Shown here: positions 16,079-23,001 of the stretch, one piece after another
How positions within the stretch are numbered: the first letter of the stretch is position 1
Layout: every line of letters starts with the position of its first letter
NCBI RefSeq assembly: GCF_040822085.1
Contig: NZ_CP162006.1
Span: 1,240,001 to 1,304,000, forward strand
Length of the DNA: 64,000 nucleotides
Reading direction: 5' to 3'
Source: Rhodoferax sp. WC2427
Lineage (GTDB): Bacteria > Pseudomonadota > Gammaproteobacteria > Burkholderiales > Burkholderiaceae_C
Notes under the pieces: model-generated
The model's input: only the letters and a program-made list of their open reading frames with translations
Told to the model about the DNA's origin: nothing
Databases searched by the model: none
Program-made: the position numbers and the translations under genes

Positions 16079-16426
16079 TCAGGCCTCCAGCCGGAAGTGC
16101 CCGCTGCGCAGCAGCGCCTCGCTGTCGGCCCGGGCCACCCGCTGCACCGGCTGGGCAGCGGAAAACTGGTACACGCGCCCGGTATGGGGCCCACGGACCT
16201 GCACCGCCGAGCGGGCCAGGTAGCGCAGCCCCAGGCTGCCCAGGCCGTCTGGGGCGGCCACCGGCAACGCCGCCGGTGCCGGTGGCTTAGCGAACGAGGT
16301 GAACCGGGCCGGTGCCGGTACTGGTGCCATTACTGGTGCCGTTACTGGGGCCTGGGGGGGGAGCGAGGGGGGGCTCGGCAGGCGGTGGGTCGCCAGCGCC
16401 TCGCGTTTCTGTCCGCAGCAGCTCAT
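16079..16426 (-). CDS. Small MSCCGQ protein, out-of-frame overlap with the upstream gene
   Basis: A 115-residue protein, unrecognised. It starts MSCCGQKREAL, has a Pro/Ala/Val linker (about 18-55), and ends in a compact domain LRYLARSAVQVRGPHTGRVYQF...ADSEALLRSGHF. That end resembles small phage-associated proteins (RG..TGr.Y.F...VdaRDa..LL) as far as I remember. The last 140 bases of the DUF1360-like gene overlap its start in another frame. An ideal AAGGAG lies six bases before the ATG at 16426, inside that gene, which supports real translation. Last gene of a three-gene operon. Confidence 0.65.
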   Translation of the reverse strand: MSCCGQKREALATHRLPSPPSLPPQAPVTAPVMAPVPAPARFTSFAKPPAPAALPVAAPDGLGSLGLRYLARSAVQVRGPHTGRVYQFSAAQPVQRVARADSEALLRSGHFRLEA

Positions 16427-16751
16427 GGGCATCTCCTTCGGGGTCGGTCAGTTCAAGAACCGGCGGCGGGGCAGCGGGCCCCAGCCGCTCCAGCAGGCAG
16501 GCCGCGCCCGACAGGCCCAGCCAGGCCAGCAGCCATTCCACGGGGTTGCGGGCCACCGCCAGGGCGACCGGTGCGGCCACCCACAGGCTCAGGCAGTAGA
16601 AGCAATCGAGCATCTGGCCCCACACGCCCTGGCCTGCCGCGGTGCGCAGGCGCAGCACGGCATCCCAGGGCCCGTCTTCCAGCGCCAACAGGTGCGCCAG
16701 CCGCCAAGTGGCCAGCGCGCCCAGCACGGCGGTGAACCAGGGCGCGTCCAT
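16287..16751 (-). CDS. DUF1360-like membrane protein
   Basis: A 154-residue protein with a DUF1360-like core: LGALATWRLAHLLALEDGPWDAV, the Cys pair DCFYCLSLWVA around residue 52, and about three transmembrane helices up to residue 100. The C-terminal 50 residues are Pro/Thr/Gly-rich, ending SNGTSNGTSTGTG, encoded by a 12-base tandem repeat that is also read as APVTAPVMAPV by the overlapping gene. Function unknown. Its start (16751) is two bases after the stop of the 753-residue gene, so the two are surely co-translated. Confidence 0.75.
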   Translation of the reverse strand: MDAPWFTAVLGALATWRLAHLLALEDGPWDAVLRLRTAAGQGVWGQMLDCFYCLSLWVAAPVALAVARNPVEWLLAWLGLSGAACLLERLGPAAPPPVLELTDPEGDAHELLRTETRGAGDPPPAEPPLAPPPGPSNGTSNGTSTGTGPVHLVR

Positions 16752-16753
16752 GC

Positions 16754-19015
16754 TCAGTTGGGGCCGGGCAGGTCGTTGCAGATCTTCACCGGCCACGAGG
16801 ACTGCGCGTAGTTCACGCCGCAGGGCCGCACGGTGCGGTCGTACACCGTCAGGCTGAAGGTGTAGACGCAGCAGGCGCCGCGCGGCGTGGCAAAGTCGTC
16901 GGGCACAAAGTACGGCAGAAAGGCTTTGCAGGCCGGGTCGATGGCGCGCAGGTCAAACATCGCCAGCAGGCCGATCACCTGGGGCAGCGTCGGCACCCCA
17001 CAGCGGGTGCCGGGGTCGCCGACCCGGCTGGTGCCGTAGTAGCAGGCACCGCCCGGGCCGGGCACCGGGATGCTGATGGACGGGCCACCCTGCTTGGTGA
17101 CCGACACCACGTAGTAGTCGAAGTTGTCGTTCGGCCGGGTCAGCGGCAGGAACTCGTCGATGTACTCGTCGTAGGCAATGCCCGATACCGGCAGGCCCCA
17201 GGCCACGCTGCAGTCTGGCGGCTGGGCGAACTGGCTGATGAACAGGTCGGCGCACTGGGGCACGGCATCGATGCGGATCAGCGCACTCAGCGGCTTGTTG
17301 TCCAGCCACACCCTCTGGGTGTCGCAGTAGGTGCCGCCCAGCGTGTCTTCCACCAGCAGGCGGATGGTGTAGAGGCCGCTGAGCTGACAGCCGCCGATGT
17401 TGCTGGACCAGCCCGAGGGCGACAGCAGCGCCTGCGGGTCGTTCAACAGGCACCAGGGCGGGAAAGGCACCGGCACCAGGCAATCGGCCGTCCAGAAGGC
17501 GGTGAGCACCGAGGTGTCGGTGCGCATGTTGATGGCCCGGTATTGCGCGGGCGTGCTGAACTCCACCGACCAGAAGTTGCTCCATCCCGGGGTGGCGCAG
17601 TCGAGCTCGAACCCGGCCTTGTAGTCCAGCGTGTAGCGCTTGATCCGCAGGCTGTCGTCGCAGCCCCCGATGGTGGCCGCGCCCAGCACGGCCAGGCAGG
17701 TACCGAACGAGGCCTCGAAGGTGCCCGATGGGCGGCTGCACAGGGCGGGCACAAAGTCGATCAGCCGTGCACCGGGGTCGGTCCAGGGGGCGTCCAGTGC
17801 CGTGCTGCCGCCGATGCCAAGAATGCGCACATCCTTTTTGAACACCGAAAACACCGTCTGGCAGGGGATGGTGGACTGGTTGCTGCCAAACACCGTGACC
17901 CGCACAAAGTAGGTGCCCGCATTCAGCAAGGTGGTGTTGAGGTAGCCCAGCAGGCCGCCCACCACCGGGCTGCTGCCCTGCACGGTATTGCCCGGTGGCA
18001 CCGGGGGGTAGACGAAGTTGGCCGCATGCCAGACCACGCCGTTGAGCGACCATTCCAGCACATAGCGCACAAACCCCAGGCCGGCCGCGGTGCCGGTGAT
18101 GGGCACCACCATGGCCGGAATCAAGGCGTTGACCTGTTCGGCCACGCAGCCGTCCGGGCCGGTCAGGGCGCACTGCAGCGGGCGGAAGCATTCGCGCAGG
18201 CAGCGCCAGTACGCACGCAGGCAGCGGGCCACGTCCACCAGGGTGCGGGCGCGCGCCAGGCAGCAGCCAAAGCGGATGGCGCACAGGCACCAGCAGCGGC
18301 AGAACCAGAACCAGGGCTGGGCGCTGTGTTCCTTGAACGCGGCGGCCCCCAGCAGGGCCTGGGCGGTGTCCACGGTCAGCAGCCGCTCGAACACGGCGGC
18401 GGCCTCTTCCTCGCCCTCCTGGCAATCGACCTGGCCGCCGTCAATCGCCTCGGGCAGGCCCGCCGTGAAATCCACCGTGGCCAGCTGGTCCGACAGGTAG
18501 GGCCGGTAGGCCTTGGCCAGTGCGTCGATCAGCGTGTCCAGGTCTTTGCGCTCGGTGGCACTGAGCTTGCCGGGCGTGACCGGCGTACCCAGCACCTCGC
18601 GCACGCACAGCCAGTAGCGGTACAGGTAGTAGGCCGACAGCCGGAAGCTGCGCGGGCGGCGGCACAGCAGCCAGCCAAAGATGATGCAGCAACGGATGTG
18701 CAGCAGGCACCAGCGCCAGTTGTCGGTGGGGCCCAGCAACTCGCGGGCCTGCGCGGGCAGCAGGGCCAGGGTGGTTTTTTCGTCGGCAAAGCGGCTGAAC
18801 AGGCGCTGCGCCATGGCGATCTCGGCCTCGCAGTCGGGCTCCAGCTGGCTGGCCTCTTTGGCCAGGCCCTGCAGGTCGTCGGCGCGTTGCAGGTCCTCTT
18901 GCAGGATGGGCCGGTAGACCGCGACCAGGGCCTCCAGCACCTGCTGGAATTCGGGGTTGTCGGGGCTGGGGTCGTTCGGATCGGCATCGCGCAATGCAGC
19001 ATGGTCAGCGGGCAT
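16754..19015 (-). CDS. Cysteine-rich protein with duplicated N-terminal module and Ig-like repeats
   Basis: 753 residues, unrecognised. Two tandem modules (about 28-142 and 162-278) share YRPxL, an acidic DC stretch, LLG, a W-rich/CC-rich segment (RCCIIFG; CRCWCLCAIRFGCC) and a YLYRYW-CVRE / LRAYWRCLREC helix. After residue 300 come Ig/PKD-like beta repeats: RYVLEWS...GTYFVRVTV, RYTLDYK... and GLYTIRLLVEDT...RVWLDNKP. About 36 cysteines in all. No signal peptide or long hydrophobic N-terminus is visible, so the export route is unclear. AGGAG precedes the ATG at 19015. First gene of an operon with the DUF1360-like and MSCCGQ genes. Confidence 0.8.
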   Translation of the reverse strand: MPADHAALRDADPNDPSPDNPEFQQVLEALVAVYRPILQEDLQRADDLQGLAKEASQLEPDCEAEIAMAQRLFSRFADEKTTLALLPAQARELLGPTDNWRWCLLHIRCCIIFGWLLCRRPRSFRLSAYYLYRYWLCVREVLGTPVTPGKLSATERKDLDTLIDALAKAYRPYLSDQLATVDFTAGLPEAIDGGQVDCQEGEEEAAAVFERLLTVDTAQALLGAAAFKEHSAQPWFWFCRCWCLCAIRFGCCLARARTLVDVARCLRAYWRCLRECFRPLQCALTGPDGCVAEQVNALIPAMVVPITGTAAGLGFVRYVLEWSLNGVVWHAANFVYPPVPPGNTVQGSSPVVGGLLGYLNTTLLNAGTYFVRVTVFGSNQSTIPCQTVFSVFKKDVRILGIGGSTALDAPWTDPGARLIDFVPALCSRPSGTFEASFGTCLAVLGAATIGGCDDSLRIKRYTLDYKAGFELDCATPGWSNFWSVEFSTPAQYRAINMRTDTSVLTAFWTADCLVPVPFPPWCLLNDPQALLSPSGWSSNIGGCQLSGLYTIRLLVEDTLGGTYCDTQRVWLDNKPLSALIRIDAVPQCADLFISQFAQPPDCSVAWGLPVSGIAYDEYIDEFLPLTRPNDNFDYYVVSVTKQGGPSISIPVPGPGGACYYGTSRVGDPGTRCGVPTLPQVIGLLAMFDLRAIDPACKAFLPYFVPDDFATPRGACCVYTFSLTVYDRTVRPCGVNYAQSSWPVKICNDLPGPN

Positions 19016-19199: not shown

Positions 19200-21053
19200 T
19201 TATGGCAACCCCGCTGGCAATGCAATGGAACATACTGAAAACGAAGCGTTTTCAAAGGCAGTGACGCTACCAGCGGGACAAAAGCCTTTGGTTCGGGGTA
19301 ATACAACTTGGGGTATTCGGTTCTTTGCTGCGTAATTCAAATAATCGTTCGGAGTGACCAGTGAATTAACTTCAGTGAATCTGGGCATCCATTGCCAGTA
19401 AAAAGAAGGATCCCACATTACAGCAGCTCCTTGCTTTAAATCTATCCATACGGGACGTTGTGTTCTAAATTGAAATTCATTGAATGCCAGGCCATGAATG
19501 CCATCCACAGGAAATAGAAACGGCCCTGTCAATTTGCTTTGGCGTATCCATCGCATCATTTCATAGGTGGATTTATCAATTTGTGATTTTTTAGATAAAT
19601 CAAAAGAGCGCCAAGTATTGGCGGTATGCGCAACCTGGATCGAAAGTAAAATACACAAAATAGGAATGACTGCGTTTTCAACGGTTGGCTTGGTTGGATA
19701 TTTAATTAATAAATATATAATTCCAAGCACCAGGAACCATCGCGCAATTGAACTGTAGGAGTAGCCAACCAGTAAGAGATCAAGAAAAATAGCAGAAAAA
19801 ACAAGGAGGCTGGCGATGCAATTTCTGACGCCAAGTGAAATGCTATTTAACCATGTAAATCTAGTGCCCGAATTACAGAGCTGGGCTGCAGCCAGGTAGC
19901 TTAAGCACATGGCTACAAAAATAAGATATATTATATCTGTTCGCATTGACATGAGGGAGCTTATGGCCAATACCGCAACCACCCGGACGTCTATTTTGGA
20001 TTTTATTTCGGTCAGCGCAAGTGTTGTAGCTGAGATAGTCAAAATAATTGCCAAGAACTGAAGTACGCCATCTGAGCGCAATAAATGTAAATTGAACACG
20101 TTACGGGTGTTAAATACATAGGGGGCGACTGATCCAACCAACAACAAAATAATGCATGCGGATAGGGTCGACATCCAAAATTTTCGATTGGTATGCAGGA
20201 ACGCAGCTGCAAAGCCACAATACGTAAGGATCGATAAACTCACCAGATCTCTGAAGGAGGCTGCTTCAATGAGGAAGTGTGCCGGGTAATACTGTCGGAT
20301 ATAGTCGATATAACTAAAGTCTGGGACTGGTTTTTTGTTGCTCAATGCAAAAGTGATCCACACCACGACGGGGCTGCATGTAAACAGAAAGACCAGGCTC
20401 GATTTTGCCAGCAGCCGCCAGTCAGGCCGCTTTTCTGGGTCCATCACCACGCCCATTGCCAATATGGCCGCGAGCCAGATGCCAACGAATGCATTTATTA
20501 AAAAGACTATGCCTGTCAAGAAGGCAGAGAGAGTGAATCGTCCAAGCTGTGCCGCAACCATTGCGGCAACCAACGGGCCCCATGTTGCTTCTGAGTGGGT
20601 GAAGTACCCAATAAACAGGCCGTGCCCTCCCACTACCGAGCTACTGATGAGCCAAGGGGTGACGGCAGCCGCGGCAAGCGATATGGTGATGGCGCTTGGT
20701 CTGGATGTGCCGTTAACTTTTAAAAACCAAAATAGTGCAGAAAACGCAGCTGCTCTGCTCAATATATGGGCGGTGAAAAAAACAGGTTCGATATTCTCTT
20801 CGGTACTGAATGATCGAACGATGGGCCAGATGATGGAAGTGAACTTTTCCATAGACTGGTAAAAAGCGTCTCCCAGGAAGACAGGTAATTCACTTGACCG
20901 TAATACATAGGGGATATGAAAGGCATAGTTGCTGATGCCCAATCGGAATCCTGTGGTGGTTATAGAGACGGTTGTTGCTACCACTACGCAGGCCATGAAA
21001 AATAGGTTCCGATATCGGGGTGAGTCGGTCAGTCGAGACTTAATGAATGTCAT
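19200..21053 (-). CDS. Polytopic membrane protein, GT-C glycosyltransferase-like
   Basis: A 617-residue integral membrane protein with roughly a dozen hydrophobic helices and a C-terminal extramembrane domain (after about 515: GPFLFPVDGIHGLAFNEF..., RPVWIDLKQGAAVMWD, RIPQVVLP). This layout resembles GT-C enzymes that transfer sugars from polyprenyl-phosphate carriers. The gene is visibly AT-richer than its neighbours, suggesting foreign origin or relaxed codon use. The start at ATG 21053 (MTFIKSRLTDSP) lacks a strong ribosome site; a longer frame to 21284 overlaps the next gene. It lies downstream of a small multidrug-resistance-like protein and a HAD-UbiA fusion, consistent with lipid-linked sugar use. 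Confidence 0.7.
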   Translation of the reverse strand: MTFIKSRLTDSPRYRNLFFMACVVVATTVSITTTGFRLGISNYAFHIPYVLRSSELPVFLGDAFYQSMEKFTSIIWPIVRSFSTEENIEPVFFTAHILSRAAAFSALFWFLKVNGTSRPSAITISLAAAAVTPWLISSSVVGGHGLFIGYFTHSEATWGPLVAAMVAAQLGRFTLSAFLTGIVFLINAFVGIWLAAILAMGVVMDPEKRPDWRLLAKSSLVFLFTCSPVVVWITFALSNKKPVPDFSYIDYIRQYYPAHFLIEAASFRDLVSLSILTYCGFAAAFLHTNRKFWMSTLSACIILLLVGSVAPYVFNTRNVFNLHLLRSDGVLQFLAIILTISATTLALTEIKSKIDVRVVAVLAISSLMSMRTDIIYLIFVAMCLSYLAAAQLCNSGTRFTWLNSISLGVRNCIASLLVFSAIFLDLLLVGYSYSSIARWFLVLGIIYLLIKYPTKPTVENAVIPILCILLSIQVAHTANTWRSFDLSKKSQIDKSTYEMMRWIRQSKLTGPFLFPVDGIHGLAFNEFQFRTQRPVWIDLKQGAAVMWDPSFYWQWMPRFTEVNSLVTPNDYLNYAAKNRIPQVVLPRTKGFCPAGSVTAFENASFSVCSIALPAGLP

Positions 21054-21133
21054 AAAAACTTTCAAATAGGTCAGGTTGAGATACCCATCGAACCACGTTG
21101 GAGCATCGTTGCGGATGGGACAGAAAACAGCCG

Positions 21134-21499
21134 TCAGCTGCGGCTTACGATCCAAACCCCGGCGCAAATGAGTGCCACGCCAGTGCCTCGCATTGGCGTT
21201 ACATGCTCTCCAGCCAGTAGACCAATGAGCACCGTGAGTGCAAAACCTAGTCCGACCAGCGGATACGCCTTGCTGACGTCCCACTTGGACAGCACGCCCA
21301 GCCAGATGACGGCGCCAAGGCCATACAGGAAAAAGCCGCTGAGTACCAACTTGTTGCTCAGAACCACGGCAAGGGTCCGCAAGGCCAGGGGTTGGGCCAT
21401 GACTTCACGCACATCGCTGCTGGACATGCCCGCCTTCAACGCAAACTGGGCCAGGACCGATAGAACAATGCTCGACAGCGCTATGGCCAGCGTACTCAT
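21134..21499 (-). CDS. Small EamA/SMR-type membrane protein (ArnE-like flippase subunit)
   Basis: A 121-residue protein with four transmembrane helices and a typical SMR/EamA pattern: VLSVLAQFALKAGMSS near the start, YGLGAVIWLGVLSKWDVSKAYPLVGLGF (58-86) and GVALICAGVWIVSRS at the end. Relatives include ArnE/ArnF, which flip undecaprenyl-phosphate-aminoarabinose. Between a prenyl-phosphate sugar transferase and a GT-C-like protein, a lipid-linked pentose flippase is the natural inference. Its ATG overlaps the TGA of the HAD-UbiA gene by 4 nt (ATGA). Confidence 0.8.
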   Translation of the reverse strand: MSTLAIALSSIVLSVLAQFALKAGMSSSDVREVMAQPLALRTLAVVLSNKLVLSGFFLYGLGAVIWLGVLSKWDVSKAYPLVGLGFALTVLIGLLAGEHVTPMRGTGVALICAGVWIVSRS

Positions 21500-23001
21500 A
21501 GCGGAAACTCCAAGGTGGCGAAGCGTCCTATCAACACGATCATGACCAGTGTGAAGACGGTTGTCCGGCTCCCGAAATCCTTGATGGCATATACGACGGG
21601 GTCGTCGTGCATCTCGCCGCGCGAGGTCTTGATCCACAGGCGTGCCAGCCAGTAAATCAAACCTAGCGCGACCAACCATAGAAGGGCCGGCGTGGCATAC
21701 CGTGCCTGGGTATCTGGTGAATTGATGAACAAACCGAACACCACCACAGACGACAGTGCGGCCCCGAGTCCAAGCGGCCATAGGACGACCAAGTCGGTAC
21801 CGCGGTAATCGCGGCCACGCGTGATTTCCCCTTCGGCTAGCTCGAGCGATACCAGTTCCGAGCAGCGCTTTACCAGGGCCAGGCTCAAGAACATAAAAAT
21901 TGAAAACGCCAGTAGCCAAGAGCTGGTGGTGACCCCAATAGCGACCGATCCTGCGAGGATGCGCAGCGTATAGAGTACCGAGAGCATGATGACATCCACC
22001 AGTACATAGCCCTTCAACATCCAACTATAGGCACTGGTAAGGGCCACATAGAGAACCAGAATGCAGAAGAACCCTGTAGAGATCGCCAAGGCCATCGCCA
22101 AAGCAGCCAACATCAGGAATACCGACATCGCGATACCGTGTTGTATGGGAATTCGGGCGCTGGCAAAAGGGCGCAGGCGTTTGCGTGGGTGGGCGCGGTC
22201 ACTTTCCAGGTCCCAGAGGTCGTTGACCAGGTAGGTGGCCGACGCAGCCAAGGAAAATGCCAAAAAAGCGACCACCATAGTGACCAAAGCGGCGATGTGG
22301 GTGAAGCTGAACGCTGTGAGCAGTGGCACGAACAACAGCAGATTTTTCAGCCACTGGTGTACCCGCAATGCCCGGATCCATAGTGCAAACCCGCCGCTTT
22401 CTCCAGGAAACTCCTTTTCAATCGGGACTTGCTTTCGGATGGAGACGGCCAGGCCCGGCACCGCTCCGACCAGAATCGCCGCCTTTGCCGCCTGCCAGAT
22501 CGGAAGATCGGCCGCGCTGTCCCCGGCATAAACAAAGTCGTCACCTACCTCGTTTTTGATGGCTTCTAATTTGGCGATGCCCTTGAGGTTGTCGTAACCG
22601 TCTGTGGCCAGCACGGTGTCAAACAAACCTAAATGCGTAGCTACGCCTGTGGCGATGGAGTGGTGCGCGGCCGTGGCCAGAACAATTCTGCGACCCTGGC
22701 TCTTTTCTGCCTGTAGGAAAGACAAAAAATCCTGTCGGTAAGGTAGCAATGCAGGCGCGATAGACGATCTGGCTGCCACCTGTTTTTTCAATTCGGCACG
22801 GCCACCTAAAAGCCAAAACGGCATACGCAGGAAGTTGATCGGAGACTGCTTGACGACCTGGATGATGGACTCGACCAGGGTGTCGGTGGGTGTCAGCGTG
22901 CCGTCCAGATCAACCACCAAGGTTGCAAGGCCTCCATCCTCGTGGGGCTGGTTGCTACGGCCTCCGATCGCTTCCAAGTCATGCAACGGAGCGGTTCTCA
23001 C
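21496..23001 (-). CDS. HAD phosphatase-UbiA prenyltransferase fusion
   Basis: 501 residues. The N-terminal HAD phosphatase has VVDLDGTLT (D31 nucleophile, D33) and a later GDSAADLPIW motif. The C-terminal UbiA-type membrane domain begins about residue 205, with the Asp-rich motif YLVNDLWDLESDRAHPRKR. This fusion resembles decaprenyl-phosphate phosphoribosyltransferases, where the HAD part would remove the 5-phosphate from polyprenyl-phosphoribose. The start is GTG at 23001 with GGAG six bases upstream. The DprE1/DprE2-type epimerase genes expected for arabinose formation are not in the neighbourhood. Confidence 0.85.
   Translation of the reverse strand: MRTAPLHDLEAIGGRSNQPHEDGGLATLVVDLDGTLTPTDTLVESIIQVVKQSPINFLRMPFWLLGGRAELKKQVAARSSIAPALLPYRQDFLSFLQAEKSQGRRIVLATAAHHSIATGVATHLGLFDTVLATDGYDNLKGIAKLEAIKNEVGDDFVYAGDSAADLPIWQAAKAAILVGAVPGLAVSIRKQVPIEKEFPGESGGFALWIRALRVHQWLKNLLLFVPLLTAFSFTHIAALVTMVVAFLAFSLAASATYLVNDLWDLESDRAHPRKRLRPFASARIPIQHGIAMSVFLMLAALAMALAISTGFFCILVLYVALTSAYSWMLKGYVLVDVIMLSVLYTLRILAGSVAIGVTTSSWLLAFSIFMFLSLALVKRCSELVSLELAEGEITRGRDYRGTDLVVLWPLGLGAALSSVVVFGLFINSPDTQARYATPALLWLVALGLIYWLARLWIKTSRGEMHDDPVVYAIKDFGSRTTVFTLVMIVLIGRFATLEFPL

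Follow-up and report, generated by a model that had tools for sequence, protein, structure and literature searches.

The 64,000-nucleotide stretch of the Rhodoferax sp. WC2427 genome analysed here (the window) carries a cassette of three genes, encoding a large cysteine-rich protein (P1), a DUF1360 membrane protein and a small CCGQ protein, whose order is kept across distant phyla. P1 is predicted to be modular, and comparison of its parts places one type of N-terminal head on two different Ig backbones, in both cases without the partner genes among the loci sampled.

Organisation of the cassette

All three open reading frames listed in the first-pass annotation are present and lie on the minus strand, to which the coordinates of the cassette features given below refer. 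P1 (16754..19015) is 753 residues long and the ATG of the DUF1360 gene (16287..16751; 154 residues) is located 2 bases past its stop codon, as had been reported. The DUF1360 protein contains the motifs WR..H..EDGP and CxxC, and matches PF07098 at 24.5-25 bits against a cut-off of 21, over profile positions 45-99 of 102. The small MSCCGQ gene (16079..16426; 115 residues) was correctly recognised, but it had been placed after DUF1360, whereas its start lies inside that gene. The beginning of CCGQ overlaps the end of DUF1360 out of frame by 140 nt (16287..16426), and CCGQ has its own AAGGAG ribosome-binding site within DUF1360 (16433..16438). The encoded protein has an N-terminal MSCCGQKR, a proline-rich linker and a conserved C-terminal domain. 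Among relatives, GGAG is found within 22 bases 5' of CCGQ in 30 of the 32 loci printed, and the DUF1360 and CCGQ reading frames overlap by 38-197 nt in 23 of the 30 loci measured. The cysteine motifs of both proteins are conserved in their alignments.

Distribution and gene order

With 510 P1 homologues among 7999 scored candidates and a conserved gene order, the cassette is beyond chance. The 120 homologues listed out of the 510 are 739-787 residues long, with identities of at least 53%. A scan of species genomes gave 40 P1 loci; two are cut within P1 (L034, L041) and were left out of the order count, and the near-duplicates L012/L036 and L025/L026 are counted among the 38 loci with an intact P1 end. 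These 38 belong to 12 phylum-level groups, and most P1-holding genomes are metagenome-assembled genomes (MAGs). Full-length relatives are 54-58% identical to the window's P1 in some groups and 34-47% in others. The order P1-DUF1360-CCGQ is found in 32 of the 38 loci, from 10 phylum-level groups that do not include Thermodesulfobacteriota and Deferribacterota. One locus (L018) has CCGQ and no DUF1360, and five (L023, L025, L026, L029 and L030) have P1 without either partner. Whole-assembly searches found neither partner in any of these five genomes (150 of 189 first-look CCGQ candidates were scored in the case of L023) and found both in the controls L012 and L031; the five are MAGs, so absent here means absent from the assembly. 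Three further loci comprise two with all three genes (L048, L077) and one with P1 only (L081).

Within taxa the cassette is sparsely distributed. Of 299 genomes sampled from the window's family, its own included, 6 have P1, and samples centred on, and counting, known holders gave 4 of 141, 4 of 95, 2 of 46 and 1 of 61 genomes. CCGQ was found only in the window's own genome among 369 genomes of the class, and a different CCG query (P0214) recovered only the window's own CCGQ from 399 genomes of the order. P0214, P0219 and P0224 are CCG proteins of the MGCCGK type, encoded on contigs of 0.3-1.6 Mb.

A scan of neighbouring genes in 26 loci, which left out the near-duplicates L036 and L026 and 11 loci where the gene caller missed P1, revealed no recurrent family. 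Among the 90 neighbours scanned, out of 138 listed, the commonest of the 25 families shown, out of 115, had at most 3 of the 90 members, and no virion, tail or metal-handling family recurred in that set. Because of this, the conserved unit, as far as seen, is just P1, DUF1360 and CCGQ. The suggestion in the first-pass annotation that the three act together gains from the survey: the genes co-occur in a fixed order in distant phyla, and DUF1360 and CCGQ are jointly missing from five P1 assemblies, four of which share one N-domain variant.

Directly upstream of P1 in the window, positions 19200-23001 are of low GC content (0.46-0.56 in 2-kb windows, against about 0.65) and encode what we take to be a multi-pass membrane protein and a HAD-UbiA-like fusion. 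This stretch may be a separate insertion, since genes other than those in the window adjoin the cassette in a Rhodoferax relative (L005).

Architecture of P1

The first-pass description of P1 was largely confirmed: its roughly 36 cysteines are exactly 36, and the claimed internal duplication is seen in two N-terminal modules that align with 31% identity over 123 positions (BLASTP E 7e-13). Module 1 (residues 19-140; 18596..18961), delimited by the BLAST duplication, models and conservation, is predicted to be all-helical, with conserved C62, C103, C109, C110, C118 and C137. Module 2 (residues 155-275; 18191..18553), also all-helical in the model, has the core CRCWCLCAIRFGCC and conserved C198, C239, C241, C243, C245, C251, C252, C265 and C272. 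In a confident AlphaFold2 model this duplicated cysteine-rich N-domain, or head, is followed over residues 279-748 by tandem beta-sandwich domains of the Ig/FN3 fold. The three sandwiches have approximate boundaries, at about residues 279-393 (17837..18181), 394-573 (17297..17836, with the C473/C564 pair) and 574-750 (16766..17296). P1 is thus, on the computed model, a duplicated helical cysteine-rich head on a rod of three Ig/FN3-like sandwiches.

The Ig/PKD-like repeats noted earlier correspond to these sandwiches, although the window P1 has no Pfam family at E<=1 and hence no PKD or Ig model. Neither P1 nor CCGQ of the window matched a Pfam or NCBIfam model at E<=1, or a PHROG or PADLOC model; Pfam matches of the relatives L025, L030 and L031 were below cut-off or absent, and the modelled N-domain had no significant PDB match. 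The modules therefore match no well-characterised family in these searches. The absence of a signal peptide was likewise borne out, as hydropathy and alignment show no signal-peptide-like hydrophobic stretch at the N-terminus of the window P1, and the most hydrophobic 12-mers near the N-terminus in 159 relatives are part of the first helix.

Paired cysteine losses

Co-variation of cysteines was analysed in an alignment of 159 P1 sequences. Many cysteines are invariant, including C109, C110, C241, C243, C245 and C252, and others are lost together. Positions 118 (codon 18662..18664) and 251 (codon 18263..18265) co-vary with a phi of 1.00, as do 473 and 564; 426, 512 and 658 behave as a trio (phi 0.96-0.98), and position 535 goes with an insert after 674 (phi 0.96; neither is a cysteine in the window P1). 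C385, C440, C522 and C732 are variable with no clean partner, 440 and 732 sharing 3 of their 8 and 5 changes, and the group L031-L033/L037 has lost a block of six cysteines, partly in gaps. On the full-length tree, for which a branch-weighted simulation was also run, every branch with a change at 473 or 564 has both (5 of 5), and the same holds for 118 and 251 (4 of 4).

Since P1 shuffles, the N-domain and Ig-part trees were rebuilt separately without the cysteine columns. The Ig-part tree still gives 5 of 5 joint changes for 473/564. In the N-domain of the window P1 six cysteines are variable; they form three pairs, and the rows that lose them are disjoint between pairs. On the N-domain tree, loss of 62/198 is one event, 103/239 accounts for two shared events with 239 lost once more (in P0008), and loss of 118/251 is one event. 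In the BLAST alignment of the modules 62/198 and 103/239 are equivalent repeat positions, and 118/251 nearly so. These paired losses suggest that 62/198, 103/239, 118/251 and 473/564 are disulfides, and the simplest reading of the N-domain pairs would be bonds across a pseudo-twofold between the two modules.

The paired losses could instead mark metal sites or packing contacts. P1 might be a cytosolic thiolate protein whose invariant clusters (C109-C110 and CxCxCxC) bind metal or store thiols, with DUF1360 (CxxC) and CCGQ (CC) as membrane and carrier partners in one metal or redox relay. The lack of a signal peptide, the invariance of the six clustered cysteines in all 159 sequences and the conserved cysteine motifs of the partner proteins are consistent with such a role. 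However, the variable N-domain cysteines go in twos, whereas a four-ligand metal site should lose more. A metal store would also not usually carry three Ig/FN3-like sandwiches, and the recurrent neighbours include no family that handles metals. We consider this explanation unlikely.

Phage relatives of the partner proteins

DUF1360 and the CCGQ domain have relatives in tailed phages. The window DUF1360 weakly matches the phage family phrog_781 (E 0.0053), and seven IMG/VR contigs encode DUF1360 relatives, with the gene directly preceding a portal gene in three of them (L052, L053 and L055). In a phage collection, 13 records weakly match the DUF1360 protein of another IMG/VR contig (L049); in three of the four opened (Sixama, A3Wally and Forza) the relative is directly before the portal gene, and in the fourth (ReqiPine5) it is two genes before gp11, whose function the record does not name. 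On L049, 0.4 kb past DUF1360, there is also a gene for a 67-residue MGCCG protein that shares the C-terminal domain of CCGQ. The multi-domain glycosyltransferase of contig L050 (8-2353) carries an MCCG module at its C-terminus, and DUF1360 lies about 3.6 kb further on; the genes after this DUF1360 are putative tail genes, which gave no PHROGs match. A second glycosyltransferase-MCCG fusion is P0245. In the stretches seen, DUF1360 and the CCG module thus appear to have a phage life without P1. Among 14 control genomes DUF1360 was found in Bacillus subtilis only.

The cassette could be read as a domesticated phage morphogenesis or decoration module: DUF1360 and CCGQ would derive from tailed phages, in which they serve to assemble virions, and P1, mounted through them for decoration or adhesion, would leave the cell with particles or on lysis. 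The position before portal genes argues for this, as do the MGCCG protein near DUF1360 on one viral contig and the glycosyltransferase-CCG fusion on another. Searches of 50,697 phage records (and of 72,556 plasmid records), however, gave no match to P1 itself, none of 202 pattern stretches in the IMG/VR scan encodes a P1 relative, and among the scanned neighbours of the cassette no virion family is recurrent. The phage-like structure proposed in the first-pass annotation is supported by the kinship of DUF1360 and the CCGQ domain and not by P1 or its surroundings in the collections and neighbours searched, and we regard domestication of a virion module as doubtful.

Two further viral contigs regions were noted. 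On L049 (9459-10997 and 1624-2946) a phrog_850 RNA-binding protein is encoded near the DUF1360 and MGCCG genes, together with what is presumably an adenylosuccinate-synthetase-like gene. On L051 (2737-5886) a gene for a 1049-residue glycosyltransferase, whose C-terminus has no CCG module, is directly upstream of DUF1360.

Head exchange and its tie to the partner genes

The 118/251 pair is lost in four of the five P1-only loci, where position 251 is Trp, against none of the 33 loci with CCGQ (Fisher 6.8e-5, ignoring kinship). Fourteen of the 15 columns that distinguish these four P1s are in the N-domain; random sets of four had 0.5 such columns on average and at most 13. Nine hand-picked comparison sets had 2-24 distinguishing columns, in most of them spread along P1. 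The two with mostly N-domain columns both contain L025/L026/L030 (8 of 8 columns with L007 added, 3 of 4 with L033).

In the N-domain tree L029, on a long branch that drew a program warning, groups with L025/L026/L030 with support of 100/99, whereas in the Ig-part tree it is placed near L011/L013/L023. The grouping of L029 with L025/L026/L030, which was named post hoc, is rejected for the Ig part (AU p 2.6e-5) and for the full length (p 5.6e-4). From these different trees it follows that, as far as the alignments indicate, one head type is combined with two Ig backbones, and in the sampled loci neither combination is accompanied by partner genes. L081, from another genome of L029's order, shares this head type, and neither partner is found within about 1.5 kb of it. 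L077 keeps the 118/251 pair and has the partners, and L048 has the partners and keeps C118 (residue 251 is outside the pattern read). In the 159-sequence alignment the pair is also missing from P0098, P0119, P0120 and P0123. L023 is an exception, with the partners absent and the pair kept. The tie between 118/251 loss and partner absence thus appears to come from one N-domain type on two Ig backbones. Because the head type without 118/251 occurs only without both partners in the sampled loci, the N-domain, perhaps through a C118/C251 bond, seems to work with DUF1360 and CCGQ. In the Acidobacteriota locus L033 the N-domain and full-length trees place the protein differently, likely a further head swap.

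That the three genes are co-transcribed and have unrelated roles is very improbable: the five P1 loci without partners and the one with CCGQ and no DUF1360 could be taken that way, but the gene order persists through 10 phylum-level groups and one N-domain type goes with partner absence. Least probable is a secreted effector or contact-dependent weapon with an active cysteine-helical head and CCGQ/DUF1360 as accessory or immunity proteins, which patchy spread and head swapping might suggest, since the head has stayed conserved rather than diversified between phyla (mean column identity 58%, 35 rows), the three cassette proteins gave no PADLOC match, and heads persist also without partner genes.

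Proposed function and comparison with known systems

We tentatively propose, from sequences and models, that the cassette serves to make a structural or adhesive multi-Ig protein braced by disulfides, and to put it in place. Because the paired cysteines are taken as disulfides, P1 would reside in an oxidising place, and the mature protein would work in the envelope or outside, despite the missing signal peptide. DUF1360, as a small CxxC membrane protein with phage kin, would receive or pass P1 at the membrane, outside Sec. CCGQ, whose C-terminal domain is of phage type, may present a vicinal dithiol on its flexible, proline-rich arm, and would link the P1 head, at a patch around C118/C251, to the DUF1360 membrane site, perhaps by thiol-disulfide exchange. 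The membrane link foreseen in the first-pass annotation fits DUF1360; its extracellular location gains indirect support from the paired cysteine losses, but P1 does not have the N-terminal signal peptide of a Sec-exported surface protein, which weighs against an extracytoplasmic reading.

A more specific version of this proposal, which we put forward as speculative and rather improbable, is a new, horizontally shuffled assembly or export system independent of Sec, in which the phage-related DUF1360 protein and a CCGQ dithiol shuttle would dock and oxidise swappable helical cysteine heads on an Ig rod and pass them through or onto the membrane. Heads lacking C118 and C251 would then occur without the shuttle because the pair would be its docking or exchange site.

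We found no description of a function for the P1 cassette. A protein of about 750 residues that occurs in about 12 phylum-level groups, mostly with fixed partners, and is unnamed in the libraries searched points to a conserved function. Should P1, in which no signal peptide is seen, prove to be oxidised outside the cytoplasm, a route of export or assembly not yet known would be involved. The tie of one head type to partner absence offers a specific, testable handle on the joint working of the three proteins. The cassette also gives context to DUF1360, a family common to Bacillus subtilis and tailed phages. The second gene of the window resembles this family (PF07098; phrog_781) in passing the Pfam cut-off and in its CxxC and hydrophobic segments; it differs in covering only part of the profile and in its weak phrog_781 match, and the family has no stated function.

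The S-ENA endospore appendages offer an analogy. Their subunits (Ena1A/B/C) have vicinal Cys10/Cys11 on an N-terminal connector (PMC8619143) and are made inside the mother cell (PMC12921279); the likeness lies in a structural protein of beta-sandwich type that disulfides lock, and in a vicinal cysteine pair on a connector. No sequence match was seen, the window P1 and CCGQ having no Pfam match, and P1 is one large multi-domain protein with the CC arm on a separate protein. Unlike S-ENA makers, the P1 hosts are, we assume, mostly not spore formers. The modelled rod of three sandwiches also resembles in fold the Ig/FN3-type bacterial adhesins and scaffold proteins SiiE and RbmA.

A likeness to GEVED-domain proteins (PF20009) comes from L017's genome, where a relative (L079) has two GEVED matches followed by a P1-like Ig part; the window P1 differs in having no GEVED match. 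The 14-kb contig of L079 carries no CCGQ or DUF1360. This GEVED-bearing relative (L079 / L083:8583-11279) is from a Methylomirabilota genome and has no evident signal peptide, and the genes beside it look like those of what we take to be respiratory complex I.
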